64,000 bases of DNA from Gemmatimonas groenlandica (GTDB taxonomy: Bacteria > Gemmatimonadota > Gemmatimonadetes > Gemmatimonadales > Gemmatimonadaceae), in assembly GCF_013004105.1 (NCBI RefSeq), contig NZ_CP053085.1, forward strand, positions 434,001 through 498,000, read 5' to 3'. The position numbers and the translations under genes were made by a program. Shown here piece by piece: positions 1,880 through 46,604 of this stretch; within the stretch, counting starts at the first letter, position 1, and each line of letters begins with the position of its first letter. The notes under the pieces were generated by a model. The model did not search any database, was not told the origin of the DNA, and saw only the letters and a list, made by a program, of their open reading frames with translations.

Positions 1880-2023
1880 ACTGAAAGGAAACGGACACGC
1901 GGGTGATTCGTCAGGGTAGTGCAATCTGCAAGAGTGCCGGGCATTCCGCTTCTGCGGCATTCTGCAAGACTCACGACTTCTGTGCGCTATACCCCCGCGA
2001 TCCCGCAGGTCCCGATTCAGGAG

Positions 2024-3781: not shown

Positions 3782-5160
3782 CCCCTCCCGCGCTCGCCGG
3801 TGACGCACCGCGCGTGCTCATCGTGGACGACGAAACGGGCATCCTCGAGTCGTTGCGCATTCTGCTCAAGAACGAGGGCTTCATTCCCTTTACGGCGCAT
3901 GGTGGCCGTGCTGGCGTGGAGCGCATCCCGGAACTGCGGCCGGACATCGTGCTGACGGACGTTCGAATGCCCGATGTGAGCGGCGTACAGGTGCTGAGCA
4001 CGTCGCGTCAGGTCGATCCCGATGTCCCGGTGATCCTGATGACGGCGCAGGCGACGTTGCAGTCGGCCATGCAGGCCGTGAACGAGGGCGCGTTCTATTA
4101 CATCCAGAAGCCGTTTCGCAACGACGAACTCCTGGCCATCCTGCGTCGTGCCGCCGAACATCGCAATCTGCGCGCGGAGAACACCACGCTGAAGCAGGAG
4201 ATCAAGCGGCGCGAGCGCACGACCAGTGGCCGTCCGATCGGGCGGAGCAAGTCTTGGCTCGACGTGCTGCGGCTTGCTGAAACGGTGGCCCCCACGGATT
4301 CCACCGTGCTCATCACGGGTGAGTCGGGTACCGGCAAGGAAGTGATCGCGCGATACATCCACGAGTTGAGCACGCGAGCGGACAACAGCTTTCTGTCTAT
4401 CAACTGCGGTGCACTCCCGGAATCTCTGCTGGAGAGCGAACTCTTCGGTCATGTGAAGGGCTCGTTTACCGGCGCCGTCAAGGACAAAACCGGCCTCTTC
4501 ACGGCGGCCAATCAGGGCACGTTCTTTCTCGACGAAATCGGCGAGACGACGGCGTCGATTCAGGTGAAGCTGCTGCGCGTGTTGCAGCAGCGTGAAGTCA
4601 TTCCCGTCGGTGCCACCGAAGCGGTGTCGGTCGACACGCGCGTACTCGCGGCCACCAATCGCGATCTCGAAGAAGAGATCAAGCGCGGCAGCTTCCGGCC
4701 CGACTTGTTCTATCGACTCAATGTGATCGCGGTGCACCTGCCCCCGCTGCGTCAGCGTCAGGACGACATTCCGTTGCTCGCGGAGTCGTTCCTGGCCCGC
4801 AGTGCTACGCTGCGCCACGAGAGTGTGAAGATGCTCCGTGACGATACCCTCGACGCGCTGATGGCCTATGCCTGGCCCGGCAACGTCCGTGAGCTCGAGA
4901 ACGCGCTCGAGCGCGCGGTGATCCTGTCCACGGGATCGGTGATCGATCCTGACGCGTTGCCGGAGCGCGTGACGGCCCGTCGGGCCGAGCCGCTGGTGAG
5001 TGAACGCACCCCGGTCTCGCCGACGCTCGAGGCCATCGAGCGCGCCTATATCCAGTGGGTGCTCCAGAACGAAGGTGGGAACAAGAGTCGTGCAGCCGAT
5101 ATGCTCGGCATCGATCCGTCCACATTGTATCGCAAACTTGCCCGCTACGGAGAAGCCTGA
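3778..5160 (+). CDS. pilR: PilR-type sigma-54-dependent response regulator
   Basis: 460 residues of NtrC architecture. The receiver domain has acidic residues D17/D18, phosphoacceptor D61 and K111. The AAA+ domain has Walker A GESGTGKE, the sigma-54 contact loop GSFTGA and Walker B FFLDEIGE. A Fis-type HTH lies at the C-terminus (NKSRAADMLGIDPSTLYRKL). The loop reads GSFTGA rather than the commoner GAFTGA. The GTG start overlaps the pilS stop codon, making a cognate pair. Its likely targets are the sigma-54 promoters found in front of the three pilA genes just downstream. Confidence 0.9.
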   Translation: MTPPALAGDAPRVLIVDDETGILESLRILLKNEGFIPFTAHGGRAGVERIPELRPDIVLTDVRMPDVSGVQVLSTSRQVDPDVPVILMTAQATLQSAMQAVNEGAFYYIQKPFRNDELLAILRRAAEHRNLRAENTTLKQEIKRRERTTSGRPIGRSKSWLDVLRLAETVAPTDSTVLITGESGTGKEVIARYIHELSTRADNSFLSINCGALPESLLESELFGHVKGSFTGAVKDKTGLFTAANQGTFFLDEIGETTASIQVKLLRVLQQREVIPVGATEAVSVDTRVLAATNRDLEEEIKRGSFRPDLFYRLNVIAVHLPPLRQRQDDIPLLAESFLARSATLRHESVKMLRDDTLDALMAYAWPGNVRELENALERAVILSTGSVIDPDALPERVTARRAEPLVSERTPVSPTLEAIERAYIQWVLQNEGGNKSRAADMLGIDPSTLYRKLARYGEA

Positions 5161-5162
5161 TC

Positions 5163-5534
5163 ATGCCCGCACTGATGCGACGTCGCACCGGATTCACGAT
5201 CATCGAATTGTTGATCGTGGTCTTGATCATCGGGATTCTGGCGTCGGTAGCAATCGCAAAATTCGGTGAGTCGAAGCGCCGCGCCTACCTCACCGCGATG
5301 AAGTCGGACCTGCGCGGATTGGCCACAATTGCCGAATCGCGCTACACGTCGGACAACTCGTACGAGAGTGTCGTGGCGCCTCAGGGCTCGGACGGTGTCA
5401 CGCTCACGTTTACAGGAACGGTGTCTGGCTGGTCGGGGACGGCGACGCACGTCGGCGTGCCGGGCGTCCTGTGCACCATCGCGGCGGGTTCGTCGCTGGC
5501 GGCGAACGCGCCCAGTGAGCCAGTCTGTCAATAG
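5163..5534 (+). CDS. Type IV pilin-like protein, divergent from the pilA copies
   Basis: 123-residue prepilin. A short basic leader ends in glycine (RRRTG), followed by FTIIELLIVVLIIGILAS with the conserved Glu at mature position 5. The C-terminal domain resembles the three downstream pilins in layout (KSDLRGL, SGWSGTATH) but differs at many positions and ends in PVCQ. The start lies 2 nt after the pilR stop, so it is probably transcribed with pilS-pilR rather than from a dedicated sigma-54 promoter; none was seen. ATG 5175 is an alternative start giving a 6-residue leader. It could be a minor pilin or a regulator-linked pilin. Confidence 0.85.
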   Translation: MPALMRRRTGFTIIELLIVVLIIGILASVAIAKFGESKRRAYLTAMKSDLRGLATIAESRYTSDNSYESVVAPQGSDGVTLTFTGTVSGWSGTATHVGVPGVLCTIAAGSSLAANAPSEPVCQ

Positions 5535-5656
5535 CCATCGCGGCGCGTCGCTCGACTCACGTGGCATGTTTGTCACGCGACGCGCACGGTCATTACACCG
5601 CGGGAACGCGCGCGAAATACCATGGGTGCGACCGTCGTTGCACGCTGCAAGGAACC

Positions 5657-5664
5657 TTGCGAAA
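5657..5664 (+). promoter_or_regulatory. Candidate upstream activator box for pilA copy 1
   Basis: TTGCGAAA lies about 91 nt upstream of the -24 GG of the sigma-54 promoter. A near-identical box occurs at 89 nt in front of each of the other two pilA copies. NtrC-type activators bind at such distances. That PilR binds it is inference. Confidence 0.35.
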
Positions 5665-5748
5665 GGCGAGACGCGGTACGCCGAGCACGCGGGCGTTGAA
5701 ATGGTGCAAGTGTTTCAATGACAGTGGGTTAGCGTGGTGCCATCAACG

Positions 5749-5764
5749 TGGCAAGGCAGTTGCC
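5749..5764 (+). promoter_or_regulatory. Sigma-54 (-24/-12) promoter of pilA copy 1
   Basis: TGGCAAGGCAGTTGCC has GG at 5750-5751 and GC at 5762-5763, the required 12-nt offset, with good -24 (TGGCA) and -12 (TTGC) elements. It predicts a transcription start near 5775 and a leader of about 60 nt before the ATG at 5836. The 300-nt gap 5535-5835 otherwise holds only the upstream box and no clear terminator. Confidence 0.8.
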
Positions 5765-5835
5765 ATATGCCATGGTGTCGCGTCGGACACCACCACGGGT
5801 GACCAGCGTCGCTTGACCCCCACTGGAGAAGTCAT

Positions 5836-6210
5836 ATGAAGCGCACTCGCAAGGGTTTTACCCTCATCGAACTCCTGATCGTCGTCGTGATCATCGGCAT
5901 TCTCGCCGCGATCGCGATCCCGAAGTTCGCTGACACGAAGCGAAAGGCCTACGTCACGGCCATGAAGTCGGATCTGAAGAACATGGTGTCGTCGGCCGAG
6001 GCGTACTTCTCGGACAACAACACGTACGCTGGCTACGCGGCGCCGACGGGTTCGTCGGGCGTCTCGCTGACGTTCGTGGGTTCGGCGACGGGTTGGGCGG
6101 GCACGGCGACGCATGCGAACGCGGCCGGCGCTACCTGCTCGATCGGTGCTGGCACGGACACGCCGGCCGGCCTCGCCGAAGGCCAGCCGGGCGGCGCGAC
6201 CTGCAAGTAA
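5836..6210 (+). CDS. pilA: Type IV major pilin PilA, tandem copy 1
   Basis: 124-residue prepilin with leader MKRTRKG, cleaved after G7, followed by FTLIELLIVVVIIGILAAIA. Glu12 becomes mature Glu5, and the rest forms the N-terminal alpha-helix. The globular part has a KSDLKNMVSSAEAYFSDN segment and two cysteines (ATCS and the terminal ATCK) that could form the D-region disulfide. It is nearly identical to the pilins at 6531 and 7201. It has its own sigma-54 promoter upstream, an RBS (GGAGAAG) and its own terminator downstream, so it is an independent unit under PilSR/RpoN. The mature protein is short for a type IVa pilin. Confidence 0.93.
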   Translation: MKRTRKGFTLIELLIVVVIIGILAAIAIPKFADTKRKAYVTAMKSDLKNMVSSAEAYFSDNNTYAGYAAPTGSSGVSLTFVGSATGWAGTATHANAAGATCSIGAGTDTPAGLAEGQPGGATCK

Positions 6211-6265
6211 CGTCTCACGATGGCGAAGCACTGCTTCGCTTCGTGTAGGACGACCTGAAGGGGGG

Positions 6266-6294
6266 AAGGGGTCGAGCATCTGCTCGACCCCTTT
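6266..6294 (+). terminator. Rho-independent terminator after pilA copy 1
   Basis: An 11-bp GC-rich stem (GGGGTCGAGCA paired with TGCTCGACCCC) is followed by TTT. A comparable stem follows each of the three pilA genes. Confidence 0.75.
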
Positions 6295-6364
6295 GCCGTT
6301 CCCGTTCGCGTCGTCTCCACCGATCCTCGAGTCTCGGGACGAAACAGGGCATTGTGCGGAAAGA

Positions 6365-6372
6365 TCGCGAAA
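6365..6372 (+). promoter_or_regulatory. Candidate upstream activator box for pilA copy 2
   Basis: TCGCGAAA, continuing as TGAAAG, lies 89 nt from the box GCG to the -24 GG. The same extended sequence (GCGAAATGAAAG) recurs at exactly the same distance before pilA copy 3. Confidence 0.4.
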
Positions 6373-6454
6373 TGAAAGGGTGTCCGCGACGCGTGGTGTT
6401 CGTAGGGTACTCGTAACACCATGGGTATGAGCGACTTGCGGTTGTGCGCGCGGG

Positions 6455-6470
6455 TGGTACGCGCTGTGCC
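6455..6470 (+). promoter_or_regulatory. Sigma-54 promoter of pilA copy 2
   Basis: TGGTACGCGCTGTGCC has GG at 6456-6457 and GC at 6468-6469 with correct spacing. The -24 element TGGTACG fits the consensus; the -12 element is GTGC rather than TTGC, so it may be weaker than the promoters of copies 1 and 3. Confidence 0.7.
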
Positions 6471-29293: not shown

Positions 29294-31672
29294 TTACCGC
29301 GACATGAAGCGGTTCACCCAGCTGGCCTTCAGGAAGAAGCTGTCGCTCACGCGGCGCAGTCGATTGAGCCCGAGTGCTTCAGGTTCCGTGAGACTGCTGC
29401 CGTAGCCGGCGAAGAACACCGTACCCGGGCTGGGGCGGAACGAGAACAGCCAGTCGGCGCGCAACAGATTCGAGCGCGTCGCCACGGTTGGCGTGAGTGT
29501 GCCGTCGGCCCGTCGCGTGTACAGCAGGGATCCGGTGCGCCAATCGCGCAGCGTCTCACGACGGTTCGCTTCGTACTGCGTGATCAGGCGAACGAACACC
29601 CACCGCGACACCTGATACTCCGCCTTCACACGCGGAATCTGCGTCGAGAACGTCGACACATCATCCACGCGCCGCACGAACTCGTTGCTGGCGTAGGTCG
29701 CGTTCATGCGCAGGCGTGTGTTCGGTCGCCAGTCCACGCTGCCGGTATAGGCCGTGCGGTTCACGCGCGACGTCTCGTTGAAGTCCACGTCGCTCGAGCG
29801 CAGCACACTGGCCGACGCCGCGAAGCGACGGAACTGCGGCGTAGACACGCTCGCCTGCTGCGAGAACGTGGTGATGCGCGGCGCCGGCGCGAACGGCACC
29901 GCGGTGTTGTTCTCGAGCACGCGCAAGGAACCGTAGACCGTCGGGTCGAACGCATACGTCGCCAGCGCCGGCGTGTAGCCCAGCGACCATCCGCGTCGCA
30001 GCGTGACCGTGTTGCCAAGGCTCGCCTTGCTCTCGAGCAGGCTCTTGGCTTTGAAGAAGTCGCCATACTGCCACAGCCCGCTCACCTGCGAGAACATCTG
30101 CAGCTTCTCGAACAGCTGCCCCTGCTTGCCGAAGATCGACACGCGGTTGGCAGTGCTCACATTCACAAAACCCGTGCGGGCCACGAAACCGTTGTCGGTG
30201 CGGAACTCCGGCGTCACGCCGAGCACGTTGTAGTGGAATCCCCAGCCACGACCGGTGCGATCCACTACCGCTTCCCACAGGCCGCCGCGTTTCTGTTCGC
30301 CGGCCGCGCGCGTCAGACTGCCCACCGCTTGCGCCTGCGCGTAGTACTTGCCACCGAACACGTGGCGCACATCGGCGCCGAACACGCGGTTGGCACGTCC
30401 CCCGCTCACGCGCTCACTGTACACCAACCCACTCTGTGACTGCAGTTGGAAGTCGCGCGTGATGCGCACGATGTCCACCAGCGGTCTGGTCGCGCCAACG
30501 GTGGTTGGCGCTGCATCGAGCGCCGAGAGCATCGCAATGTTCGAGCGCCCTAAGCGGCCGGTGAGCTTCAGGGCCGCATCCGGTTGCACGATGCGACGCG
30601 TGTACACCAGCGTGTTCGGCACGTTGAATTGGTCGGCGCCTTCCACGAAGAATGGCCGACGTTCCGGATAGAACAGCGCGAAGCGCGGGTCGGCCGCCAC
30701 TTGCGTCGCATCCGCTTCGACCTGCGAGAAGTCGGGGCGGATACTGCCGTTGAGCACGAAGTTGCTCCCGAGTCCGACGCGCACGTTACCACCTACGCGT
30801 GGCTTACTCGTGTAACGCCAATCCTTCAAGTTTGAAGGATCGGTCGACGGGATACCGCTGATGGTGCTCGTGAGTTCGGGGTTGATCTGGGCATCGATGC
30901 CACGGGTGAGACCGGTCATGCCCGCCAACCAACCTTCCTGCGAAATGAACGAGGCCGCCCCGCGCTGCACCGGCGTCCACGTTTCTTCGTACCCGCTGTG
31001 CTGCACTTTGCGGCTGAACTGCACGCCCCACCGCTGCACACCGCCCGTGGGAAAACGCAGGCTGGTGTACGGAATGCGGATTTCGACTTCGTATCCCCAG
31101 TCCTCCACGTGCCCGCGCGACGTCCACAGGAAATCGGCGCTGAGGTCGTTCTGCCCAGGCATCACGTTCGAGCCGGGAATGAATCCCCCACCTTCGGCCT
31201 TCGTCCCGTCCGCTTGGATGCCGAGCGGATTGACGATGAATACGAACGCGCGACGACGCTCCTGAAACGGATCGAGATGGATCTCGATGTTGTCGTCGGC
31301 CGTCAGCCGATCGCGGTCGGCCAGCGTCGCGCGCACGATGCCGTGCGGCTCGTAGGCCCGCACCCCGAAGTAGATCGCCGTCGGCGAGTACCACACCCGC
31401 ACTTCGGTCGAGTCCGGTGCTGGACGTCCGTCGGTTGGGCTATACAGCGAAAAACCGGTCAGCAACGACGCCGTGGACCATACCGGCTCGTCGAGACGGC
31501 CGTCGATCGTGACGACCGCCGAGCTCGGGCGGCCCATGCGGACTTCCGTCTGGCCATTGATGGCGTGGTACACCGCCGCCGCGGAATCGTGGGGCGGCTG
31601 GAGCGCGGGCGCGGCGGGAAATGAAGCAACCGTCAACTGCAGCGCGCCCGCAAAACTGAGCAGGAAAGACAT
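29294..31672 (-). CDS. CBM9-like/DUF5916 outer-membrane protein
   Basis: 792 residues with an N-terminal signal peptide. Residues about 50-230 resemble the CBM9-like domain ([54 protein letters not shown]). The remainder is a DUF5916 region of many amphipathic beta-strands ([24 protein letters not shown]), predicted to form an outer-membrane barrel. The substrate is unknown; a role in glycan or metabolite handling is only family-level inference. The gene sits on the opposite strand between hslV and hslU, splitting that operon. Confidence 0.8.
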
Positions 31673-33315: not shown

Positions 33316-36300
33316 ATGCGCCTAATGCCGAAGCTGGCTGCCCGCTCCGCGCGGGTCCGTCGCTTGTCCGTGCTCGCTACCCTGCTCGTTGCGGTGGTCG
33401 CGCCCGCAACCGCCCGCGCCCAGATGCCGCGCATCGAAGTCCGCAACGATGCCGCCGGCTCGCGCATCCAGGTGAATGGCACCGACATGCTGCTGCGCGG
33501 CGTGAACTGGGACTACTTCCCCATCGGCACCAACTACTCCTACAGCCTCTGGGCACAGCCGGACGACGTCATCAAGACGGCCCTCGATCGCGAGATGGGG
33601 TTGCTCAAGGTCATGGGCGTGAATGTCATCCGGCAGTACAACGGCGTGCCGCCGCGATGGGTCAAGTACATCTACGAGCAGCACGGCATCTACACGGTGC
33701 TCAATCACGCGCTCGGCCGGTACGGCACCACCATCAACGGCGTCTTTCAGGCGCAGACAGTCTACTCCGATCCAAAGGTGCGCCGCGCGCTCACCAACGA
33801 AGTGCTCGCCATCGTCGAGGAATTCCGCGGCACACCCGGCGTCCTCATGTGGCTGCTCGGCAACGAGAACAACTACGGACTCTCCTGGAAGTCCGCCGCT
33901 ACCGAGAATCTCCCCGCCGGTGAGCGCGACGCGGCGAAGGCCACCTACCTGTATTCGCTCGTCGGCGAAGTCACGCGCGCCATCAAGGCCAAGGATGCCT
34001 CGCGCCCCGTCGCCTTCGCCAACGGCGATCTGCAGTACCTCGACATCATCGCCAAGGAAGCCAAGGGCCTCGATGTCTTCGGCACCAACGTGTACCGCGG
34101 TGCGTCATTCCGTGATCTGTTCGATCGCGTGAAAGCATCGATGGGCATTCCCGTCATGCTCACCGAGTTCGGCGCAGACGCGTGGAACGCGCGCGACATG
34201 CGCGAAGATCAGCTCTCGCAGGCCAAGTACCTCTTGGCGCAGTGGCAGGAGATCTACGAGCAGACGGCTGGACACGGACGCGCCGGCAATGCCATCGGTG
34301 GCTTCACCTTCCAGTGGACTGACGGCTGGTGGAAGTTCGGCCAGGAGCTCCGCCTCAACGAGCACGACACCAACGCCTCGTGGTCCAACGCCGCCTACGG
34401 TGATGACTACGCGAAGGGCGAGAACAACATGAACGAAGAGTGGTGGGGCATCGTCGCCAAGGGCCCGGCTGACTCCAAGGGACAGTTCCCGCTCTATCCG
34501 CGCGCGGCCTTCTACGCGCTGCAGCAGGCCTATCAGCTCGACCCGTACGCGACCTCCAGTAGCACGGCCAAGATCGCGTCGCACTTTGCCGCCATCAGTG
34601 CGGCCGATGTGGAGCTTCGCGCCCGCGCCGATCGCGCCGCGCTCACCGGTGAGGGCACCAGCCGCGTCACGGTGAGCGGCCTGCGCATGGAACTGCAGAC
34701 GTTCAACACCGGCGGCTCCAAGATCAGCACGCCCAAGGTGGCCGACGCGGCCTCCACGGTGTATCCGTCGTTCCAGGGCTTCGATCGCATGGAGTCGTTC
34801 TACGCCGACATCACCGCGCGCCCCAGCGAATCCTTCTCGGCCACGTTGTCGCTCAATGTGCTCGGCAATGTCCCCGGCAATCCGATCGACCAGATTTTCT
34901 ACGAGAATCGTGGCCGCCCGCGCAATGTGCTCACCGATGGTACACCACTTCGCCTGAACGGCATCGATCGACTTGCCGTGTATCGCGCCAGCGTGTCATG
35001 GGATGATCGTAACTTCCGGTTGGACGGATTCTATCGCACGGGCCACTACCACTGGGGTTACGAAGGCGACTTCTTCGGCCTCTATCGCGAAGCGAACTAC
35101 GGTAAGAACATCGACATCTACAACGGCAACGCGCCCGCGGGTGTCGAGTTCACGGGCAAGCGCAAGCTGGCCGGCCTGAAGCTCGCTTTCGGTCCCGAGC
35201 TCTGGTGGGGTGCCAATCCCACGGCGATCGCGAAATACGGCCGTAAGGTCGGCGAGACGTACATCACGGCGATGTACCAGGAAGACGTCGCGAAGCTGAA
35301 TGCGTCGGCCAGCAATAGCTCGTTCGCCATCCCGATTCCCCAAACGCGCCGCGCCACGCTGCATCTCGCCGACACCATCGCCGGTTTCGGTGTGGAAGCC
35401 GGTGGTATCTGGGCCGGTGCCACGCGCGTCGGCGTGCCGTTTCAGATCGTCGACTACTCTGGTGGCACGACGCGTGTGCTTCAGGACAAGATCAAGGACA
35501 GCGACGCCTTCGGTGGCAAGGCGCGCATGACGTACTCGAAGGGCCGCTATAACTGGTACGCCCAGGGCGCCATCATGGGTCTCGTGGCAGACGGCGGTCC
35601 GACCTCGGTGCAGACGTTCACTGGCTGGAGCCTCAAGGACACAGGGCTCAACAATCAGTGGAACACGATCTCCGGTCTCTCGGCGCGCTTCGGCGCATTC
35701 GAAATCGCCCCGAACTTCCTGTATCAGAAGCCGATCGTCGGTCCCGTGCCGTTCGACACGCCGGCGCCCGGGCGTCCGCGCAATGTGGTCGATGATCCGT
35801 TTGCCGTACGCGCCAATCGCGAAACGTACGGCGCCGAACTGCTGCTCACGTTCGACCCGACGCCAGCCACGTGGATGTACGCGTGGGACAGCGACATGCG
35901 GGAAGACGCGCGCTTCGCCGCGAATGTGGGCTACGTGTACCGTCGCCTGCCCACCACGATGGACGCCGCGATCGGTATCCTCGGCGACGGCCGCACCACG
36001 TTTCCGTTCCCCGGCGCAACGCCGGCGCGCACCCTCTACGAAGTGCGCTCGCGCATCGTGTCCAAGGTGGCGAACGACGTCCGCCTGATCGCCAACCTCT
36101 ACACCGGTACCGCCGAGCCGAACGGCAACGATCCGCGCTTGCTGCATCGCTCCGGTGTGGATGTGCGCATGGTCAAGCAGCACGTGAAGGTGATGGCCGC
36201 TGCGAAGCTCAACGACTGGGGTCCGTTCGACTACCATCGTGACTTCAACCTGACGTTCCCGAAGCAGTTGCTCACCGACGTGTCGTACTCCATCGGCACG

Positions 36301-36495
36301 CCGCAGTGGTGGGACTTGCCGGAAACGAAGTTTGGCGTGCGCGGTACCTGGCGCGCCCTCGACAAGTACTCGCCGCGCTTCTGCCCGGAGCGGGTGCCCG
36401 ATCTGACCACCGGCGTTCCCACCTGCGATCCCACCGCACCGGCGAAGAACGGCTCGGAGTGGGAAATCCGGACCTATCTCACCGTGGCCTGGTAG
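33316..36495 (+). CDS. Secreted clan GH-A glycosidase fused to a C-terminal outer-membrane beta-barrel
   Basis: 1059 residues. A signal peptide ends near ARAQ. Residues about 45-440 form a GH2/GH5-like TIM barrel: LRGVNWDYFPIG, acid/base E184 in LLGNENNYG and probable nucleophile E284 in MLTEFGADAW, then FTFQWTDGWWKFGQE. From about 460 to the end the sequence is a series of amphipathic strands ending in an aromatic residue (TYLTVAW), as in outer-membrane barrels. The combination suggests an enzyme tethered to or displayed by its own barrel. Substrate unknown; the GH3 and GH16 neighbours suggest a beta-glucan. An in-frame upstream extension to 33202 lacks any feature; the ATG 33316 starts a good signal peptide. 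Confidence 0.78.
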   Translation: MRLMPKLAARSARVRRLSVLATLLVAVVAPATARAQMPRIEVRNDAAGSRIQVNGTDMLLRGVNWDYFPIGTNYSYSLWAQPDDVIKTALDREMGLLKVMGVNVIRQYNGVPPRWVKYIYEQHGIYTVLNHALGRYGTTINGVFQAQTVYSDPKVRRALTNEVLAIVEEFRGTPGVLMWLLGNENNYGLSWKSAATENLPAGERDAAKATYLYSLVGEVTRAIKAKDASRPVAFANGDLQYLDIIAKEAKGLDVFGTNVYRGASFRDLFDRVKASMGIPVMLTEFGADAWNARDMREDQLSQAKYLLAQWQEIYEQTAGHGRAGNAIGGFTFQWTDGWWKFGQELRLNEHDTNASWSNAAYGDDYAKGENNMNEEWWGIVAKGPADSKGQFPLYPRAAFYALQQAYQLDPYATSSSTAKIASHFAAISAADVELRARADRAALTGEGTSRVTVSGLRMELQTFNTGGSKISTPKVADAASTVYPSFQGFDRMESFYADITARPSESFSATLSLNVLGNVPGNPIDQIFYENRGRPRNVLTDGTPLRLNGIDRLAVYRASVSWDDRNFRLDGFYRTGHYHWGYEGDFFGLYREANYGKNIDIYNGNAPAGVEFTGKRKLAGLKLAFGPELWWGANPTAIAKYGRKVGETYITAMYQEDVAKLNASASNSSFAIPIPQTRRATLHLADTIAGFGVEAGGIWAGATRVGVPFQIVDYSGGTTRVLQDKIKDSDAFGGKARMTYSKGRYNWYAQGAIMGLVADGGPTSVQTFTGWSLKDTGLNNQWNTISGLSARFGAFEIAPNFLYQKPIVGPVPFDTPAPGRPRNVVDDPFAVRANRETYGAELLLTFDPTPATWMYAWDSDMREDARFAANVGYVYRRLPTTMDAAIGILGDGRTTFPFPGATPARTLYEVRSRIVSKVANDVRLIANLYTGTAEPNGNDPRLLHRSGVDVRMVKQHVKVMAAAKLNDWGPFDYHRDFNLTFPKQLLTDVSYSIGTPQWWDLPETKFGVRGTWRALDKYSPRFCPERVPDLTTGVPTCDPTAPAKNGSEWEIRTYLTVAW

Positions 36496-36504
36496 CGCCG
36501 GCGG

Positions 36505-38721
36505 GTGTCAGAACTGGTGTCCACACCGCTGTCCGTCGAAGCACGCATCCGCGATCTGCTCGCGCAGCTGTCCATCGAAGAAAAGATCGGACAGCTGCAG
36601 CAGGTGCAGGGCGGTGGCGGGCAGGTGTCGGACGACCTCGCGCAGGCCATTCGTGATGGGCGCGTCGGGTCGGTCATCAACGAGGTACACGTCGATACGG
36701 TGAACGCACTGCAGCACATCGCGGTGCGCGAATCGCGCCACGGCATCCCCTTGCTGATCGGACGCGATGTGATCCATGGCTTCGCCACCGTGTTTCCCAT
36801 TCCGCTGGGGCAGGCGTCCAGCTGGAATCCCGACGCCGTCGAGCGCGGTGCGCGCGTGGCCGCCACGGAAGCGGCGGCCTGTGGCGTGAATTGGACGTTC
36901 GCGCCGATGATCGACATCGGTCGCGATCCGCGTTGGGGGCGCGTCGCGGAAGGGTTCGGCGAAGATCCCTATCTCACCGGCGTGCTCGCGGCGGCATCGG
37001 TGCGCGGCTATCAGGGTGCCGACCTTACCGCACCGGACGCCATCGCCGCGTGCGCCAAGCACTTCGTCGGCTATGGCGCCAGCGAGAGTGGCCGAGACTA
37101 CAACACCACGAACATCGCGCCGCGCGAGCTGCGCGATGTGCACTTGCCCCCGTTCGAGGCGGCCGTGCAGGCGGGCGTGGCGTCGATCATGACGTCCTTC
37201 AGCGACATCGACGGCATTCCGGCCAGCGCGAATGGACCGTTGCTCACCGGTATTCTGCGAGAGCAATGGGGCTTCGATGGCCTCGTCGTCAGCGACTGGG
37301 ACTCGATTCGCCAGCTCGCCATCCATGGCCTGACTGCCGACGATCGCGGCTCGGCGCAGGAAGCGGCTATCGCCGGCGTCGACATGGAGATGGCCAGCAC
37401 GACCTACGCCGACCATCTCGCCGATCTGGTACGCGATGGACTCGTGCCCGTCGAGCGGCTCGATGCGATGGTGGCCAACGTGCTGCGCATGAAGCTGCGG
37501 CTCGGTCTCTTCGAGCGCGCGATGACCGACCCGAGCACATTCCCGGTCGCCGGGAACGTCGAGCATTTACAGGCGGCGCGCGAAGTGGCGCAGGAAAGCA
37601 TCGTCCTGCTCCGCAATTCCATGCACGACGGCGAGTATCTGCTGCCGCTCGCCGCCGGCGCACTCACTCGTCTCGCCGTAATCGGACCGCTCGCCGATGA
37701 CCCATACGAGCAGCTCGGCACCTGGATCTTCGACGGCGACGCCCAGCACAGCCGCACGGTGCTCGGCGCGCTGCGGGAGGCGCTGCCCGACTCCGTGCAG
37801 ATCGAGGTCGCGCAGGGTGTCCCCAACACGCGAAGTCAGGACACGAGTGGCTTCGACGACGCCGTGCGCGCCGCGGCCAACGCCGACGTCGCGCTGCTCG
37901 TGCTCGGCGAAGAATCGATCCTCTCGGGCGAAGCACACTGTCGGGCTGACATCGCCCTTCCCGGAGCCCAGGAAGCGCTGGTAGAGGCCATTGTGGCCAC
38001 AGGAACGCCCGTCGTGCTCGTGGTCATGGCCGGTCGCGCGCTGGCGCTCGAGCGCGTGGCGCATCGGGTGCACGCGCTGCTGTACGCTTGGCATCCGGGT
38101 TCGATGGGTGGGGCCGCCATCGTGGATCTGCTCTTTGGTGCCGCGTCGCCGTCGGCTCGCCTACCAGTCACGCTGCCGCGCGCGACGGGTCAGATCCCGA
38201 TCTACTACGCGCACAAGAATACGGGAAAGCCGGCCACACCCGAGACGGTCGTGTCGATGCATGACATCCATCCGCGCGCCCCGCAGCTGTCGGTTGGCAA
38301 CACCTCCTTCCATCTCGATGTCGATCCGTCGCCCCTGTATCCGTTCGGCTTCGGACTCACGTATACCTATGTCGAGTACGAGGCGCCGTCTCTGCGCCTC
38401 GCCGAGGTGTCGCTCGATGGCACCGTCGAGATCAGTGCCACGCTCACGAATCGCGGCGCCCGCGCCGCCGACGAGGTCGTGCAGTTGTATGTGCGCGATC
38501 TCGTCGGCAGTGCCACGCGCCCCGTGAAAGAGCTCAAGGGCTTCCAGCGCGTGCACCTCGCCGCAGGAGAGCGCCGAACCGTGCGCTTCTCGTTGCCGGT
38601 CGCACAGCTCGCCTTTCACGGCTGCGATCTCCAGCGCGCCGTCGAGCCCGGACGTTTTCATGCATGGATCGCTCCGAACGCTGGCACCACGACCTCCGTA
38701 GAATTCTCCGTCCGTTCCTGA
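36505..38721 (+). CDS. Glycoside hydrolase family 3, BglX-like beta-glucosidase
   Basis: 738 residues without an obvious signal peptide. GH3 N-terminal TIM barrel with KHFVGYG and the catalytic nucleophile D264 in GLVVSDWDS; C-terminal alpha/beta sandwich (VVLVVMAGRAL) and a fibronectin type III-like end (LTNRGARAADEVVQLYVRD, PVKELKGFQRV). It releases glucose from beta-gluco-oligosaccharides; linkage preference is not visible. It starts at GTG 36505, 9 nt after the fused glycosidase, in the same operon. Confidence 0.88.
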   Translation: MSELVSTPLSVEARIRDLLAQLSIEEKIGQLQQVQGGGGQVSDDLAQAIRDGRVGSVINEVHVDTVNALQHIAVRESRHGIPLLIGRDVIHGFATVFPIPLGQASSWNPDAVERGARVAATEAAACGVNWTFAPMIDIGRDPRWGRVAEGFGEDPYLTGVLAAASVRGYQGADLTAPDAIAACAKHFVGYGASESGRDYNTTNIAPRELRDVHLPPFEAAVQAGVASIMTSFSDIDGIPASANGPLLTGILREQWGFDGLVVSDWDSIRQLAIHGLTADDRGSAQEAAIAGVDMEMASTTYADHLADLVRDGLVPVERLDAMVANVLRMKLRLGLFERAMTDPSTFPVAGNVEHLQAAREVAQESIVLLRNSMHDGEYLLPLAAGALTRLAVIGPLADDPYEQLGTWIFDGDAQHSRTVLGALREALPDSVQIEVAQGVPNTRSQDTSGFDDAVRAAANADVALLVLGEESILSGEAHCRADIALPGAQEALVEAIVATGTPVVLVVMAGRALALERVAHRVHALLYAWHPGSMGGAAIVDLLFGAASPSARLPVTLPRATGQIPIYYAHKNTGKPATPETVVSMHDIHPRAPQLSVGNTSFHLDVDPSPLYPFGFGLTYTYVEYEAPSLRLAEVSLDGTVEISATLTNRGARAADEVVQLYVRDLVGSATRPVKELKGFQRVHLAAGERRTVRFSLPVAQLAFHGCDLQRAVEPGRFHAWIAPNAGTTTSVEFSVRS

Positions 38722-38743: not shown

Positions 38744-40549
38744 ATGACCACCATGACGCGACACGAGATCGTGGCCGAGCGCGCTGAGTCGCTGCTGGCC
38801 CGCATGAGCCTCGCTCAGAAGCTCGGACAGATGATCATGTCCGAGCGGATGGCCACCACGCCTGACGACGTTCGCGACTTCCACTTGGGCTCCGTGCTCA
38901 GCGGCGGTGGCTCCGCTCCGGGCGCGAACGCCGTAGGCGATTGGGTCGCCATGAACGACGCGTACTGGACCGCTTCGATGTCCGAAGCGAACGGCCGCTT
39001 ACCTATTCCGCTGCTGTATGCGGTGGATGCAGTACATGGTCACGCCAACGTGCTCGGCGCCACGGTCTTCCCGCACAACATCGGCCTCGGTTGCGCGCGT
39101 GATCCCGAGCTGGTTGAGCGCACGGCACGCGTGATGGCGAAGGAAGTCCTGGCCACCGGCGTCGACTGGACGTTTGCCCCCACGCTAGCCGTGGCGCAGA
39201 ACATCCACTGGGGCCGCACCTACGAAAGCTTTTCGGAGGATCCCGCAGTCGTCGCATCGTACGCCGCCGGGTACGTCCGTGGTGTGCAGCACGACCTTGG
39301 CACCGACGGCGTGATCGCCTGCGCCAAGCATTGGGTCGGCGACGGTGGTACGACCGCCGGCAATGATCAGGGTGACACGGCGATCTCCGAGGAGGAGCTC
39401 GAGCGTACGCACATGTCGCCGTACTATCCGGCGCTCGAGGCGGGTCTGCTCACCGTGATGGCGTCGTTCAACAGCTGGAACGGCGACAAGTGTCACGGGC
39501 ATCGCTATCTGCTCACCGATGTGCTCAAGGGCCGCCTTGGCTTCGATGGACTCGTCGTGTCCGATTGGGACGGCGTCGACTACCTGCACGAAGACTACGG
39601 CACCGCGATCGGCATGGCGGTGAATGCCGGCATGGACGTGTTCATGGTGTCGCTCGAATGGAAGCGCTGCCTTGAACTGCTCCAGCAACAGGTCGAAGCG
39701 GGCATTGTGCCGATGTCGCGCATCGATGATGCGGTGCGCCGCATTTTGAGCGTGAAGCTCCGCTTCGGCCTCTTCGAGAAGCCACGGCCGGCCGATCGCT
39801 CGTGGTCAAACAGCGACAGCTTTGGCAGCGCCGCTCACCGCGAGATTGCCCGAGAGGCGGTGCGAAAGTCGCTGGTGTTGCTCAAGAACGAGGACGCGCT
39901 GCTGCCGCTGTCGCGCGCGGCGCGCATCCTCGTGGCCGGCAAGAGCGCACACAATCGCGGGCACCAGTGCGGCGGCTTCACGGTAGCGTGGCAAGGCGAG
40001 ACCACGAATGAGGCGATCGTGGGTGGCACGTCGATCTGGGAAGGCATTCAGGCCCTCGCGCCGATGGCCGCGCTCGATGAACACGGAACGTCGGCCGACC
40101 CCGCGCTGCATGACGTGGCCATCGTAGTGATCGGCGAAAAGCCGTACGCCGAAGGGATGGGCGACCTACGTTTGGGCGGACGCGTCGAGAAGGGTTCGCA
40201 CAACCCGGCGAAGCCTCACAACCTTGCCCCCTACGGCAAGACGATCGAACTCGCGCAGCTCCACCCGGAAGATCTCGCACTCATCACCGCGATCGCGGCT
40301 AAGGGCATTCCGGTCGTCACGGTGTTCGTGGGCGGACGTCCGCTTGTGGTGAACGCGGAACTCGACGCCTCGCAGGCGTTCGTCGCGGCATGGCTGCCCG
40401 GCTCCGAAGGGCAGGGTGTCGCCGACGTCCTGCTCGGCGACTACCCGTTTCACGGCACCTTGTCCTTCGCCTGGCCGCAGAGTGCGGCGCCGTCGTACAA
40501 AGACGAGGCGCCGCGTTTCGCCCGAGGCTACGGAATCACGACGGGCTGA
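38744..40549 (+). CDS. Glycoside hydrolase family 3, exo-beta-glucosidase (ExoP-like)
   Basis: 601 residues without a signal peptide. GH3 with KHWVGDGGTTAGNDQGD, nucleophile D274 in GLVVSDWDGV and a second domain with GEKPYAEGMGD carrying the likely acid/base Glu. It resembles plant barley-type and bacterial ExoP beta-1,3/1,4-exoglucanases and lacks the FnIII tail of its neighbour. Having two GH3 types in one operon fits stepwise degradation of a mixed or branched beta-glucan. Its 3' end overlaps the convergent transporter gene by 22 nt. Confidence 0.88.
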   Translation: MTTMTRHEIVAERAESLLARMSLAQKLGQMIMSERMATTPDDVRDFHLGSVLSGGGSAPGANAVGDWVAMNDAYWTASMSEANGRLPIPLLYAVDAVHGHANVLGATVFPHNIGLGCARDPELVERTARVMAKEVLATGVDWTFAPTLAVAQNIHWGRTYESFSEDPAVVASYAAGYVRGVQHDLGTDGVIACAKHWVGDGGTTAGNDQGDTAISEEELERTHMSPYYPALEAGLLTVMASFNSWNGDKCHGHRYLLTDVLKGRLGFDGLVVSDWDGVDYLHEDYGTAIGMAVNAGMDVFMVSLEWKRCLELLQQQVEAGIVPMSRIDDAVRRILSVKLRFGLFEKPRPADRSWSNSDSFGSAAHREIAREAVRKSLVLLKNEDALLPLSRAARILVAGKSAHNRGHQCGGFTVAWQGETTNEAIVGGTSIWEGIQALAPMAALDEHGTSADPALHDVAIVVIGEKPYAEGMGDLRLGGRVEKGSHNPAKPHNLAPYGKTIELAQLHPEDLALITAIAAKGIPVVTVFVGGRPLVVNAELDASQAFVAAWLPGSEGQGVADVLLGDYPFHGTLSFAWPQSAAPSYKDEAPRFARGYGITTG

Positions 40550-42084
40550 TTGGCCAGCCCACGGCGCCGCTCGAGTTCCTGGCGCACGTCTTGGGCCTTC
40601 TCCTCGGTGATCGGATAGCCGGAGATCGCCCAGATCGCGATACCCGATGCGATGAACGGCACAAGCACGTCGCAGAGCCGCAGTAGCACGAGCGTGCGCG
40701 GTGTCTGCGCACCGGCCAACGCGACGTCGAACCCGGTCCAGTTCACGAGGAAGCCACCACCGGCGAGCGCGGCCGCCATGCCGACCTTCACCACCCACCA
40801 GTAGATCGAGCCGAACATTCCCTCGCGGCGCTGCCGCGTCTCCAGCTCGTCGCAGTCGACGACATCGGCGATCATGGATCCCATGAGCGTGAACAGTCCG
40901 CCAAGACCGAATGCCATCAGCGGCGCCGGTAGCATGACCAACCACGGACGGCTGGGATCGTAGCAAAACCACTTCACGGCATAGCCAACCATCGAGAGCC
41001 CGGTCGACACATAGAACGCTCGCTTTTTGCCAATCTTTGTGGCCAGCCACGTGATGAAGAAAATCACGGCGAAGGTCGAGACCGCTCCGAGCGTACCCGC
41101 ATAGCCGGCGTACTCGGCACCGCGCTCCTGATTGCCACCGAACACATAGTAGATGATCACGTACGATTGAAACGACGAGATCATGATGAAGCCGTTGAAC
41201 ACCAGAAACGTCGCGATGCACAGCTTCAGAAACGGCCGCGACTGCAAGGTCGACTTGCAGCCGGCAAGGAACTCGATCGTGTGGTGTTTCGTGGACTGCC
41301 AGAGACTCGTGCGTGCCTCGCGTGCTGCCGTCGAGGCCTCCGTCTCCGGCTCATGAACGAATCGCTCCCGCAGGAAAATCGCCGGCAGGATGCCGACACA
41401 CGCCGCGACGATGCCGATGGTCAGTGCGAGCGAGCGCGCACCTTCAGTCGGCGTCGAGAACCACGGCTTGTGGGTCATGATCCACAAGAACCACGGCGAC
41501 ACGAGATAGGCGATCTGTCCGATGAAGTTCTGCACGCCCATGAGACGTGTCCGCTCGTGATAGTCAGGCGTGAGCTCATAGCCCAACGCGACCCACGGCG
41601 CCGCAAAGATCGTGTAGGCTACGTAGAACAGGTTCGAACCGATCACGAAGTACCAGAAGTAGAACGACTCGGTCTTGCCGATCGGCATGGCCCAGAGCAC
41701 GGCGTACGAGATGCCTGACAGGATCGCGCCGACGAAGATGTACGGGCGCCGTCGTCCCCAGCGAGACCGCGTCTGGTCCGAGATGAACCCCATCAGCGGA
41801 TCGATCAACGCGTCGGTCGCCCGTGGAATCGCGCCCGCGATGCCGACCAGGGCCGGGTTCATGCCGAATCCGAGATTCAGAATGATCATCATGCCGCCGA
41901 TCGCAGCCGCCAGCAGATTGTTCACGAAGGCGCCGAGGCCGTAGGCGATCTTGCGTGAAAACGCGATGCGGTCCTGAGGGAGCGTGGTGTTGGCGACGGC
42001 GATGCCGCCCTTCGTTCCCAATCGCGTGTGCCACGCGGACACCGCCGCGCGTGCCAAACCGCGTAGCGTGAGCGTATCGCTCAC
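40528..42084 (-). CDS. GPH-family (MelB-like) sugar:cation symporter
   Basis: 518 residues with about 12 transmembrane helices. Typical features are DALIDPLMGFISDQTRSRWGRRRPYI and the sugar-transporter core of the glycoside-pentoside-hexuronide family. A cytosolic loop lies around residues 250-280. It would import oligosaccharides released by the GH16 and fused glycosidase for the cytoplasmic GH3 enzymes. The start overlaps the GH16 stop (ATGA). The first 35 residues are hydrophilic and an internal start is possible. Confidence 0.85.
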   Translation of the reverse strand: MSDTLTLRGLARAAVSAWHTRLGTKGGIAVANTTLPQDRIAFSRKIAYGLGAFVNNLLAAAIGGMMIILNLGFGMNPALVGIAGAIPRATDALIDPLMGFISDQTRSRWGRRRPYIFVGAILSGISYAVLWAMPIGKTESFYFWYFVIGSNLFYVAYTIFAAPWVALGYELTPDYHERTRLMGVQNFIGQIAYLVSPWFLWIMTHKPWFSTPTEGARSLALTIGIVAACVGILPAIFLRERFVHEPETEASTAAREARTSLWQSTKHHTIEFLAGCKSTLQSRPFLKLCIATFLVFNGFIMISSFQSYVIIYYVFGGNQERGAEYAGYAGTLGAVSTFAVIFFITWLATKIGKKRAFYVSTGLSMVGYAVKWFCYDPSRPWLVMLPAPLMAFGLGGLFTLMGSMIADVVDCDELETRQRREGMFGSIYWWVVKVGMAAALAGGGFLVNWTGFDVALAGAQTPRTLVLLRLCDVLVPFIASGIAIWAISGYPITEEKAQDVRQELERRRGLANQPVVIP

Positions 42085-42872
42085 TTGGCCACCTCATACA
42101 CGCGCACCCAGTCCACCACCATCGCCTGCGGAAACGTCGTGATCGCATCGGGTGCGCCCACGAAGTTGCCACCCACGGCCACGTTCAGGATGATGAAGAA
42201 CGGCTTTTCGAATACCCACGGACCCTTCACATCGGCCGGCGTCGAGGTGAAGTATTTCTCGCCATCGATGAAGTGCTCGATCTTCTCGGGTGACCATTCC
42301 ACGGCGTACACGTGGAAGTCATTGTCGAGGCGTGCCAGCGTGAGCGTCTTCGCTTTCGTCCGCGCCGCGCCGCCGGAGTAGCCCGGGCCGTGCAGCGTGC
42401 CGACCACCGTACTCGGCTCTTGACCGCGATACTCCATGATGTCGATCTCGCCGGTCTGCGGCCAACCCACCGTCGGAAAGTCGGTGCCGAGCATCCAGAA
42501 CGCGGGCCACATGCCGCGCCCGCGAGGCAGCTTCATGCGCCCTTCGATACGGCCATACTTGAACGACTGCTTGCCGAGCGTGATCAGTCGCGCCGATGTG
42601 TACTGACGGCCGCGATAGTTCTCGCGCCGCGCCGTGATCACCAGATTGCCAGTGCCGTCGAGTGACGCGTTCGACGCACGATCGGTGTCGTACTCGAGCT
42701 GCGCATTTCCCCAGTCTTCGCCCACGTCGAACTTCCAGTTGGCCGCATTGGCCACTTGTCCCGCCGGCCCGCTGAAGTCGTCCTCCCACACCAACGTGCG
42801 AGCAGGCGCTTCGGTGGAGGACGAACATCCGACGGCAGAGCAGAGGAGGGCAGCGGCAATGACACGACGCAT
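42081..42872 (-). CDS. Lipoprotein endo-beta-glucanase, GH16 family
   Basis: 263 residues. Lipobox with C16 (CSAVGC). GH16 fold with the catalytic motif GEIDIME: nucleophile E142 and acid/base E147; NAQLEYDTDRASNASLDG and MWPAFWMLG also match. The bulge in the motif fits laminarinase/lichenase-type enzymes acting on beta-1,3 or mixed-linkage glucan. Anchored to a membrane, it would make oligosaccharides for the adjacent symporter. It belongs to a four-gene minus-strand operon. Confidence 0.9.
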   Translation of the reverse strand: MRRVIAAALLCSAVGCSSSTEAPARTLVWEDDFSGPAGQVANAANWKFDVGEDWGNAQLEYDTDRASNASLDGTGNLVITARRENYRGRQYTSARLITLGKQSFKYGRIEGRMKLPRGRGMWPAFWMLGTDFPTVGWPQTGEIDIMEYRGQEPSTVVGTLHGPGYSGGAARTKAKTLTLARLDNDFHVYAVEWSPEKIEHFIDGEKYFTSTPADVKGPWVFEKPFFIILNVAVGGNFVGAPDAITTFPQAMVVDWVRVYEVAK

Positions 42873-44174: not shown

Positions 44175-46604
44175 CTACTTGTGTACCAACACGTTGTCCA
44201 CGTACACGGTTTTCAGATCGCCGGAGAAGATCAGCTGCGCGAGGTTGCCGCGCGCCGTCAGACCCGGGAACGCCGTAAACGGGATGTCCAGCCTGACCCA
44301 ACTCCCCGTCACAAGCGCTGGCGTGGTGGAGGCCGTGAGCGTGACTTCGTGCTCGGAGTCGTCACCGCCGCCGAACGTGCCGTTCGCCCCGAAATTCACC
44401 AGTTTCACCTTGAAGACGGCCGGTGCGGCTGTCGCGTCCGGCGTCCAGATATCCATCGAGAAGTGCGTCATCGTGCTCGCGTTGATCTGCTTCGAGATGA
44501 ACTCGATGCCGGCAAACACGACGTTGCTGTACCGCTTCACATCATCGTTTCCGATCTTGATGTCCGCCACGTCCGCCTGATCCCAATCGGCCGACCACGT
44601 GTCCGCGCCGTTGCTGGTGTACGCGTTGGAGAACAGCGCAATGGCGTTCGCCGCCGTGTATGTCGGTGTCGGTGCGGCCGTCGTGGGCGCAGTCGGAGCG
44701 CCACTCGACCGATAGAAGTAGACGTTGTCGACGTACAGCGTGGTCAGTGTGCCGGACAGGATGAGCTGCGCGAGATTCTTGCGCGTGGTGAGACCGGTGA
44801 AGGCCGAGAACGGAATGTCGAGCGAGATCCAGGCACCGGTGGTGAAGCCCGGCGTGGTCGTGCGCGTGATTGAGATCTCGTGCTCGACGTCGTCACCGCC
44901 GAATACCCCGTTGGCCCCGAAGTCCACCAGCTTGATCTTGAGCAGCGCGGGCAGCGCCGTGGCGTCGGGCGTCCACAGGTCCATGTGCATCGTCGTCATC
45001 GCCGTGGCATCCACCTGCGAGGTCGTGAACTCGATGCCGGCGAACGACATGCCCGTGTAGCGCTTCACGTCGTCGTTGGCCACCTTGACGTCCGCGACAT
45101 CGGCGATGTCCCAATCGGCGGACCACGTGCCCACCGTGCGGTTGGTGTAGGCGTTGCTGAACAGCGAGATCACGTCCGCCGATGCGCGCGTCGGCGTCGG
45201 TGCGGCGACAGTTGGTGCGTTCGGCGTCGGCGGAGCCGCGGTCTTGTAGAAGTAGACGTTGTCGAGGTACACCGTCGCGCTCGATCCCAGGAGAATGAGC
45301 TGCGCGAGGTTAGCGCGCCGGGTGAGTCCGGTGAATGACGACAGCGGGATATCGATGCTGTTCCACGCGTTTGCCACCAGCGGCGGCGTGCTGCCCGGCG
45401 TGATGGCCACTTCGTGCTCGCTATCGTCGCCACCACCGAACACGTTGTTCGGACCGAAGTCCACCAGCTTCACCCGGAAGGACGCTGCGTCATAGACGTA
45501 CACGTCGAGGTGAAGATGCGTCATGGCCGTCGCGTTGACCTTCGTGCCGATGAATTCGGCCGCCGCGAACGTGAGGTTCGTGTAGCGCTTGGTCGCGTTT
45601 CCACCGATCTGCACGTCGGCCACATCTGCCTGGTCGAACGAGGCCGACCACGTGTCCACCGGTACATTGGTGTAGGCATTGCTGAACAGGGAGACCACGT
45701 CAGCCGCTGCGCGCGTCGGTGTCGGTGCCGCCGCGCTCGGTGCCGTCTGCGTGCGCAGCGTGATCGCTCCGGTCGCCGTCGTCTCGCCGAGTTTGGCGGT
45801 GATCGTGCTCGTGCCGACGCCCACCGTGGTGATCGCGCCCGTCGCGCTCACGGTGGCCACCGCGGCATTCGACGAGGCGAAGGTGAAGTAGCCGGCCGAC
45901 GCCTCCGTGATCTGCTCGACGCCGCCAATCGTGTGCGCAACCCTGGTGCCTGTCAGGGCCACGGTCGCACCGACTTCCGACGTGATCGACTGCGTCGGGA
46001 TGCTCGGGCGAGGCGTGCCCAGATCGACCGTTTCGAATTTGATCTCGTCAAACCAGATCGTGTAACCAACGCCGTTTTCCGGTCCTTCGGCGAAGTAGAA
46101 CATGCCGCGTTCCGCCGTCAGCTTCGAGGCGAGCGGAATCGGCAGCGTATACTTCGTCCACGTCGTCGTCAGGTCGAGCGCCGACCGCTGTGCGGTGAGT
46201 GTCGACGTGCCGGTGTTGTCGTTGCCAAGACCGACAACATCGAGCTTGGCGCTGATGCTGGCCTTCGCCCAGAACGTCACGGCGTTGTAGCTGCTCAAGT
46301 TGCGCGGCACCTGCGCCACGAACGCGCCACCGGCGTATCCGCCGGTCGGATCGCCAGGGGATGGCACGATCACCTTGAGCGCTGCCGTTCCCTCGCGCTT
46401 CATCGTCGCATCCGACGACAGGGCGTCGGTCTTCGAGCCGCTGAATCCCTGAAAGTCGACACCGGCGCCGAACGCGTCGCCGAAAATGGTGCCGCCTGAC
46501 GGGAACGGGGCTGGCTCGAGCATGCTCGTGTCACGGCTGCAGGCCGCGGTCAACAACAAGCCGGCAAGGCCAAACAGGCGGGACGCGGACGAGGGCAAAT
46601 GCAT
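44175..46604 (-). CDS. Surface glycan-binding lipoprotein with three tandem modules
   Basis: 809 residues. Lipobox C22 (LLLTAACS). Residues about 30-200 form a first carbohydrate-binding-like domain (FSGSKTDALSSDATMKREGT, NDNTGTSTLTAQRSALDLTT), then a Big2-type Ig domain (ITSEVGATVALTGTRVAHTI). Three repeats of about 160 residues follow, each with ADVISLFSNAYTN, TWSADWDQADVADI, VKLVDFGANGVFGG and WVSLDIPFSAFTGL. These modules are seen attached to GH16 laminarinases in other bacteria. No catalytic residues are evident, so it probably binds the polysaccharide at the cell surface. First gene of the minus-strand operon. Confidence 0.78.
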   Translation of the reverse strand: MHLPSSASRLFGLAGLLLTAACSRDTSMLEPAPFPSGGTIFGDAFGAGVDFQGFSGSKTDALSSDATMKREGTAALKVIVPSPGDPTGGYAGGAFVAQVPRNLSSYNAVTFWAKASISAKLDVVGLGNDNTGTSTLTAQRSALDLTTTWTKYTLPIPLASKLTAERGMFYFAEGPENGVGYTIWFDEIKFETVDLGTPRPSIPTQSITSEVGATVALTGTRVAHTIGGVEQITEASAGYFTFASSNAAVATVSATGAITTVGVGTSTITAKLGETTATGAITLRTQTAPSAAAPTPTRAAADVVSLFSNAYTNVPVDTWSASFDQADVADVQIGGNATKRYTNLTFAAAEFIGTKVNATAMTHLHLDVYVYDAASFRVKLVDFGPNNVFGGGDDSEHEVAITPGSTPPLVANAWNSIDIPLSSFTGLTRRANLAQLILLGSSATVYLDNVYFYKTAAPPTPNAPTVAAPTPTRASADVISLFSNAYTNRTVGTWSADWDIADVADVKVANDDVKRYTGMSFAGIEFTTSQVDATAMTTMHMDLWTPDATALPALLKIKLVDFGANGVFGGDDVEHEISITRTTTPGFTTGAWISLDIPFSAFTGLTTRKNLAQLILSGTLTTLYVDNVYFYRSSGAPTAPTTAAPTPTYTAANAIALFSNAYTSNGADTWSADWDQADVADIKIGNDDVKRYSNVVFAGIEFISKQINASTMTHFSMDIWTPDATAAPAVFKVKLVNFGANGTFGGGDDSEHEVTLTASTTPALVTGSWVRLDIPFTAFPGLTARGNLAQLIFSGDLKTVYVDNVLVHK

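Follow-up and report, generated by a model that had tools for sequence, protein, structure and literature searches.

The window, a 64,000-nucleotide stretch of Gemmatimonas groenlandica DNA, contains on the plus strand an ORF that begins with ATG at 33316, ends with a stop codon at 36493–36495 and is open throughout. Its product (1059 aa) joins a clan GH-A glycosidase domain to a predicted outer-membrane beta-barrel (Table 1), with the TIM domain starting directly behind a cleavable signal peptide that ends near ARAQ; only 3 of 76 relatives scored as lipoproteins with a simple pattern. Mean column conservation was 0.71 in the enzyme, 0.69 in the barrel and 0.52 in the linker. The sole Pfam match was Glyco_hydro_2_C (PF02836, E 7.9e-8, residues 88–293), with none in the last 600 residues, and NCBIfam gave just distant, sub-cut-off matches to beta-galactosidases. 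The protein is labelled by NCBI as "glycoside hydrolase family 2 TIM barrel-domain containing protein", and databases name the glycosidase alone.

Table 1. Features of the fusion gene and its neighbours, in window coordinates
Feature	Position	Strand	Basis
792-aa protein, CBM9-like and DUF5916 region	29294-31672	-	
Signal peptide, residues 1-36	33316..33423	+	Sequence read directly; no lipobox
Clan GH-A catalytic TIM-barrel domain, residues 37-412	33424..34551	+	Pfam PF02836; GH158 best profile; GH158/GH157/GH2 fold matches
E184 codon	33865-33867	+	
E284 codon	34165-34167	+	
Helical linker, residues 413-450	34552..34665	+	Low conservation; helices in AlphaFold2 model
Predicted outer-membrane beta-barrel, residues 451-1059, about 26 strands	34666..36492	+	AlphaFold2; fold matches; strand alternation; conserved polar face
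GH3, beta-glucosidase-like	36505..38721	+	Pfam PF00933/PF01915/PF14310; no evident signal peptide, probably cytoplasmic
Second GH3	38744..40549	+	Pfam PF00933/PF01915; no evident signal peptide
MFS_2 (GPH type) inner-membrane sugar importer	40528..42084	-	Pfam PF13347, E 6.7e-58
GH16 endo-beta-1,3-glucanase-like lipoprotein	42081..42872	-	Pfam PF00722; lipobox AVGC
ROK-family regulator, winged helix-turn-helix	42884..44134	-	Pfam PF00480
Repeat lipoprotein	44175..46604	-	Lipobox TAAC, then CSRDTSMLEPA; Big-like Pfam domain

The GH16 gene is the only one of its family in the genome, and its product has a beta-1,3-glucanase (2hyk, E 4.8e-78) as best PDB match. The second GH3 gene and the MFS gene overlap tail to tail (40528–40549), and the MFS and GH16 genes share 4 bases (42081–42084); because of these overlaps, the minus-strand genes probably form one operon. 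The repeat lipoprotein, for which no solved relative was found by sequence, has a Big domain and about three similar C-terminal repeats, and is proposed to be the glycan-binding partner of the fusion. On the other side, 1.6 kb before the fusion and on the opposite strand, lies the gene for the 792-aa DUF5916 protein, which may be another outer-membrane protein.

Enzyme and barrel halves of the fusion

The original prediction described the N-terminal half as a GH-A catalytic domain with both Glu residues, E184 and E284, and alignment with a characterized enzyme bears this out. E184 and E284 align to residues 115 and 198 of chain 6pal, which, with a constant offset of 22, are E137 and E220 of BuGH158, i.e. 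the catalytic acid/base and the nucleophile, whose alanine mutants are inactive (PMC7157763). Residues N183, E184 and E284 are invariant in an alignment of 54 sequences and pair with N136, E137 and E220 of BuGH158, so that the domain has the TIM barrel, the Asn-Glu acid/base and the Glu nucleophile of a clan GH-A retaining glycosidase. When the family profile was compared with PDB, GH158 chains came top (6pal, 31.4 bits; 9oro, 22.3 bits), with GH2 and GH5 chains at about 21 bits, and Foldseek on the fusion model ranked GH158 and GH157 first. With VIA-align, GH2, GH5, GH157 and GH158 all scored Z 26–28 over about 290 residues, lying within about 2 Z units of one another; because of this near-tie, the clan assignment is firm but that to a CAZy family is not. 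The fusion shares the GH-A TIM barrel, the catalytic pair and a beta-1,3-glucan locus with the GH158 enzymes BuGH158 (6PAL) and GH158(Pro) (9oro), but it is at most about 20% identical to them, carries a membrane barrel and lacks the Ig-like C-terminal domain of BuGH158. As for GH2, the TIM domain exceeds the Pfam cut-off of PF02836, but this was the only GH2 domain found with Pfam; the sugar-binding and immunoglobulin-like sandwich domains that precede the TIM barrel in that family gave no match. The enzyme resembles degraders of the seaweed glucan laminarin.

The C-terminal half had been described as about 600 residues of barrel-like strands, and structure prediction agreed, placing about 26 strands across residues 451–1058, with outer-membrane barrels retrieved in fold searches. 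AlphaFold2 was run with 54 aligned sequences on the whole fusion (pLDDT 77.6) and on residues 437–1059 alone (pLDDT 78.5, pTM 0.74); both models are of moderate confidence and both have about 26 strands. Hydrophobic and polar residues alternate along the strands (mean difference 2.8, versus 1.4 for segments drawn at random from the enzyme domain, with the face assignment taking the larger value for strands and random segments alike). The polar, lumen-facing side of the strands is better conserved than the lipid side (0.75 versus 0.59, Wilcoxon p 0.0009), and the loops at 574–607, 628–634 and 968–980 are 90–94% conserved. VIA-align with the barrel alone gave AlgE as the best match (Z 16.2), followed by MOMP (Z 16.0), OccK/OprD porins (Z 15–16), FimD (Z 14.5, with the alignment covering model residues 9–623), maltoporin (Z 13.4) and the SusCD complex BT1762-1763 (5t3r; Z 13.4 over 371 residues). 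Foldseek E-values for the barrel reached 1.9e-10, yet the TM-scores to known barrels were just about 0.3–0.4; since these fold scores are moderate, the exact number of strands and the closure of the barrel are provisional. The predicted protein thus combines a signal peptide, amphipathic strands, short periplasmic turns, long outer loops and a known fold, as expected of an outer-membrane beta-barrel, and a soluble secreted protein was rejected because of the strand pattern and the barrel fold matches. Of the two outcomes named beforehand as refuting the prediction, neither a C-terminal region lacking a closed barrel nor a soluble secreted protein was seen, with closure provisional. The chain was also said to end in an aromatic residue; this holds for the nearest relatives, the majority of the others terminating with -GM, -GK or -GN or with an aliphatic residue.

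In the model, the turns on the side of the termini are mostly of 2–3 residues, whereas the opposite loops average 20. Since this arrangement, with the short turns next to both termini, is the standard porin topology, the GH-A enzyme probably sits on the periplasmic side. The same topology was used to argue for a periplasmic cytochrome in the cytochrome-porin Cyc2 (PMC8406198), which likewise carries an N-terminal functional domain and a C-terminal porin in one chain but differs in having 16 strands and, in place of a glycosidase, a haem domain for iron oxidation.

Distribution of the fusion and content of its loci

Full-length relatives of 53–79% identity were found in Gemmatimonadota, Bacteroidota, Krumholzibacteriota and other phyla. 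A scan of genome contigs gave 571 stretches encoding relatives, the best 80 of which are near full-length (53–66% identity) and span Gemmatimonadota, Bacteroidota, Ignavibacteriota, Krumholzibacteriota, Eisenbacteria and Zixibacteria. Because relatives keep one frame at full length with 53–79% identity, a frameshift or a chance gene fusion was ruled out. Among Gemmatimonadota, 23 of 200 genomes carry the fusion, and a barrel-only profile matched the same 23 (in G152 split across contigs), revealing no free barrel in these genomes. The whole fusion, kept in hundreds of bacteria, is thus the conserved unit. In its tree, the Bacteroidota-labelled rows lie on one side of a branch with support of 100, and the labels of phyla cluster far more strongly than they do after shuffling, suggesting that the fusion is probably old. 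Within the genus it is patchy: of 8 other same-genus genomes sampled, 7 (G019, G055, G068, G078, G111, G171 and G180) are without it, although it is 79% identical in G039.

No fusion relative was found in viral contigs and no match in PHROGs, and two plasmid records contain one. Of these, "plasmid 29" of Bacteroides finegoldii (L111, NZ_OY725931.1) carries valS, rpsA and glutamine synthetase genes and is probably a chromosomal fragment. The copy of the locus in this human gut species is without SusCD in the stretch shown.

Neighbouring ORFs were clustered in 83 stretches and named with Pfam and PDB. In the 76 loci with a clustered fusion, the recurrent neighbours were the repeat lipoprotein (62), GH16 (51), MFS (38), GH17 (33), GH149 (31; PDB match 6hq6, 1264 bits), a Y_Y_Y regulator (23), GH3 (22), GH30 (21) and ROK (10). 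The laminarin-type gene content of the window, with GH16 and GH3, recurs in relatives. Among Gemmatimonadota, GH16 was present in all 23 genomes with the fusion versus 40 of the 177 without it (Fisher p 1e-13, uncorrected for relatedness), and in 18 of the 23 it lies within 15 kb of the fusion. The repeat lipoproteins frequently (42 of 74) have the pattern C-x-R-D/E after the lipobox. Of the 68 loci offering enough room, 39 have the lipoprotein gene no more than 400 bp behind the fusion; these are mainly loci of Bacteroidota, in which the gene occupies the place of SusD, directly behind the fusion as SusD is behind SusC.

The absence of a SusCD pair from the locus, claimed from the sequence at the outset, was confirmed: the locus has no adjacent susC and susD genes, and the nearest TonB Plug and SusD matches are 67 kb and 126 kb away, respectively, in a genome with 8 SusD and 49 Plug matches. 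Neither SusC nor SusD was among the families matched by at least two members of a set of 115 of the 142 unclustered flank ORFs of at least 400 aa (a non-exhaustive scan: 27 ORFs were set aside on reading, and most flanks extend no further than 10 kb). SusCD was seen beside the fusion in one of about 80 loci, L076 from Bacteroidales, where genes for SusC, SusD and a third lipoprotein-like protein (positions 74–6469) precede a regulator and the fusion; L076 is possibly an intermediate or a double system. In those other fusion genomes that allowed the distance to be measured, at least 47 kb separate the fusion from the closest SusD of its contig. Two fusion genomes that are 94–95% complete (G042 and G054) gave no SusD match, and most genomes hold other SusD proteins and TonB-dependent transporters that could potentially import glucan. 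The fusion locus is like SusC/SusD importers in that an outer-membrane barrel adjoins a lipoprotein in a glycan locus, but differs in that the partner lipoprotein is not SusD by Pfam, the enzyme is in the same chain as the barrel and the TonB plug is missing. As the fusion gave no Plug or TonB_dep_Rec match in Pfam up to E 0.1, it does not qualify as a TonB-dependent SusC. The suggestion that enzyme and porin in one chain might replace SusCD is thus backed only by context, i.e. an otherwise complete locus, the near absence of SusCD and a lipoprotein in the place of SusD, but since L076 has a SusC/SusD pair next to the fusion, replacement is not universal.

A candidate route for beta-1,3-glucan uptake

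Together, the fusion, the two GH3, the MFS, the GH16, the ROK and the repeat lipoprotein genes would provide for glucan binding and cutting, import across the inner membrane, hydrolysis in the cytoplasm and control; within the locus, only the fusion could fill the outer-membrane step. An importer function is likely, and we infer, on balance and with modest confidence, that the fusion is an enzyme-porin for the uptake of laminarin-type beta-1,3-glucan. In this scheme, the glucan would be bound by the repeat lipoprotein at the surface and cut by the GH16 lipoprotein. Fragments would then pass through the large barrel, selected by its conserved loops and polar lumen. On arrival they would be recut by the fused GH-A domain, located in the barrel lumen or at the periplasmic mouth, and this recutting would sustain an inward gradient. 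Short oligosaccharides would be carried to the cytoplasm by the MFS protein and finished there by the GH3 enzymes, and in relatives by GH149 and others. More tentatively, the enzyme-porin without TonB plug and its lipoprotein might constitute a separate class of glycan importer that does the beta-1,3-glucan work of SusCD in Bacteroidota, Gemmatimonadota and related groups, with uptake driven by cleavage on arrival; we regard this as possible rather than probable.

The barrel could instead be an anchor or an autotransporter-like translocator that displays the GH-A domain outside as a surface laminarinase, the fragments entering by another way. The order of signal peptide, enzyme, helix and barrel resembles that of type V secretion, and the helices at 417–444, just ahead of the first barrel strand in the AlphaFold2 model, recall autotransporters, making surface display possible. 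Classical autotransporter barrels have 12 strands, whereas about 26 are predicted here, so that the fusion is not a classical type Va autotransporter, and neither conservation of the polar lumen nor long loops conserved at 90–94% would be needed if the barrel were just an anchor. Although the GH158 enzymes of SusCD loci are predicted at the cell surface (PMC7157763), we consider this arrangement rather unlikely for the fusion.

It is also conceivable, though improbable, that SusCD pairs encoded elsewhere import the glucan and that the fusion is their helper enzyme at the outer membrane. The many SusD and Plug matches in the G. groenlandica genome, the arrangement of L076 and the TonB receptors and SusD of Formosa laminarin loci (PMC6246565) all speak for such a role; however, this locus and nearly all others examined lack SusCD, and no SusD match was obtained in G042 or G054, which carry the fusion. 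That AlgE, an alginate exporter, is the best VIA-align match of the barrel would fit the export of a self-made glucan trimmed by the GH domain, as in exopolysaccharide secretion. This seems very improbable, since none of the recurrent neighbours was recognised as a glycosyltransferase, and those that could be named (inner-membrane sugar carrier, phosphorylase, glucosidases) are catabolic.

The fusion is a real and widespread architecture that has gone unremarked as far as the literature searched shows; no paper describing it or its barrel was found in that literature, mostly outside subscription journals. Genes like it may nevertheless have been recorded. In one report, Muricauda laminarin loci contain a "GH2 beta-glycosidase", GH16, GH149, two GH17, GH30_1 and MFS genes, and are syntenic with a laminarin-induced Formosa locus (PMC13188888). 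A North Sea bloom study describes laminarin loci of the type GH149-GH0-GH16_3 as highly expressed (PMC10108472). The variant laminarin PULs described for Muricauda, Polaribacter and Formosa share GH149, GH16, GH17, GH30_1 and MFS with the fusion loci; they also contain a gene named GH2 in Muricauda and GH0 in the bloom genomes, which the parts consulted present as an ordinary glycosidase (PMC13188888, PMC10108472). This gene is probably the fusion.

Laminarin is a very abundant marine sugar and one of the largest carbon pools on an annual basis, and SusCD is the system to which its uptake is generally attributed. The genes and proteins of SusCD also serve as bloom markers of laminarin use (PMC6298971). 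If the GH2/GH0 label indeed hides an enzyme-porin, SusCD-free loci would have been miscounted or left without a transporter, a feeding route on laminarin would have been overlooked, and the fusion would clearly exemplify a single chain that holds both a glycosidase and a pore; how the outer membrane is crossed in these loci becomes a directly testable question. GH149 CAZyme clusters without susCD have been noted (PMC5827456), and in the bloom study one variant 1 laminarin locus (NS4) is reported to be without susCD (PMC10108472).
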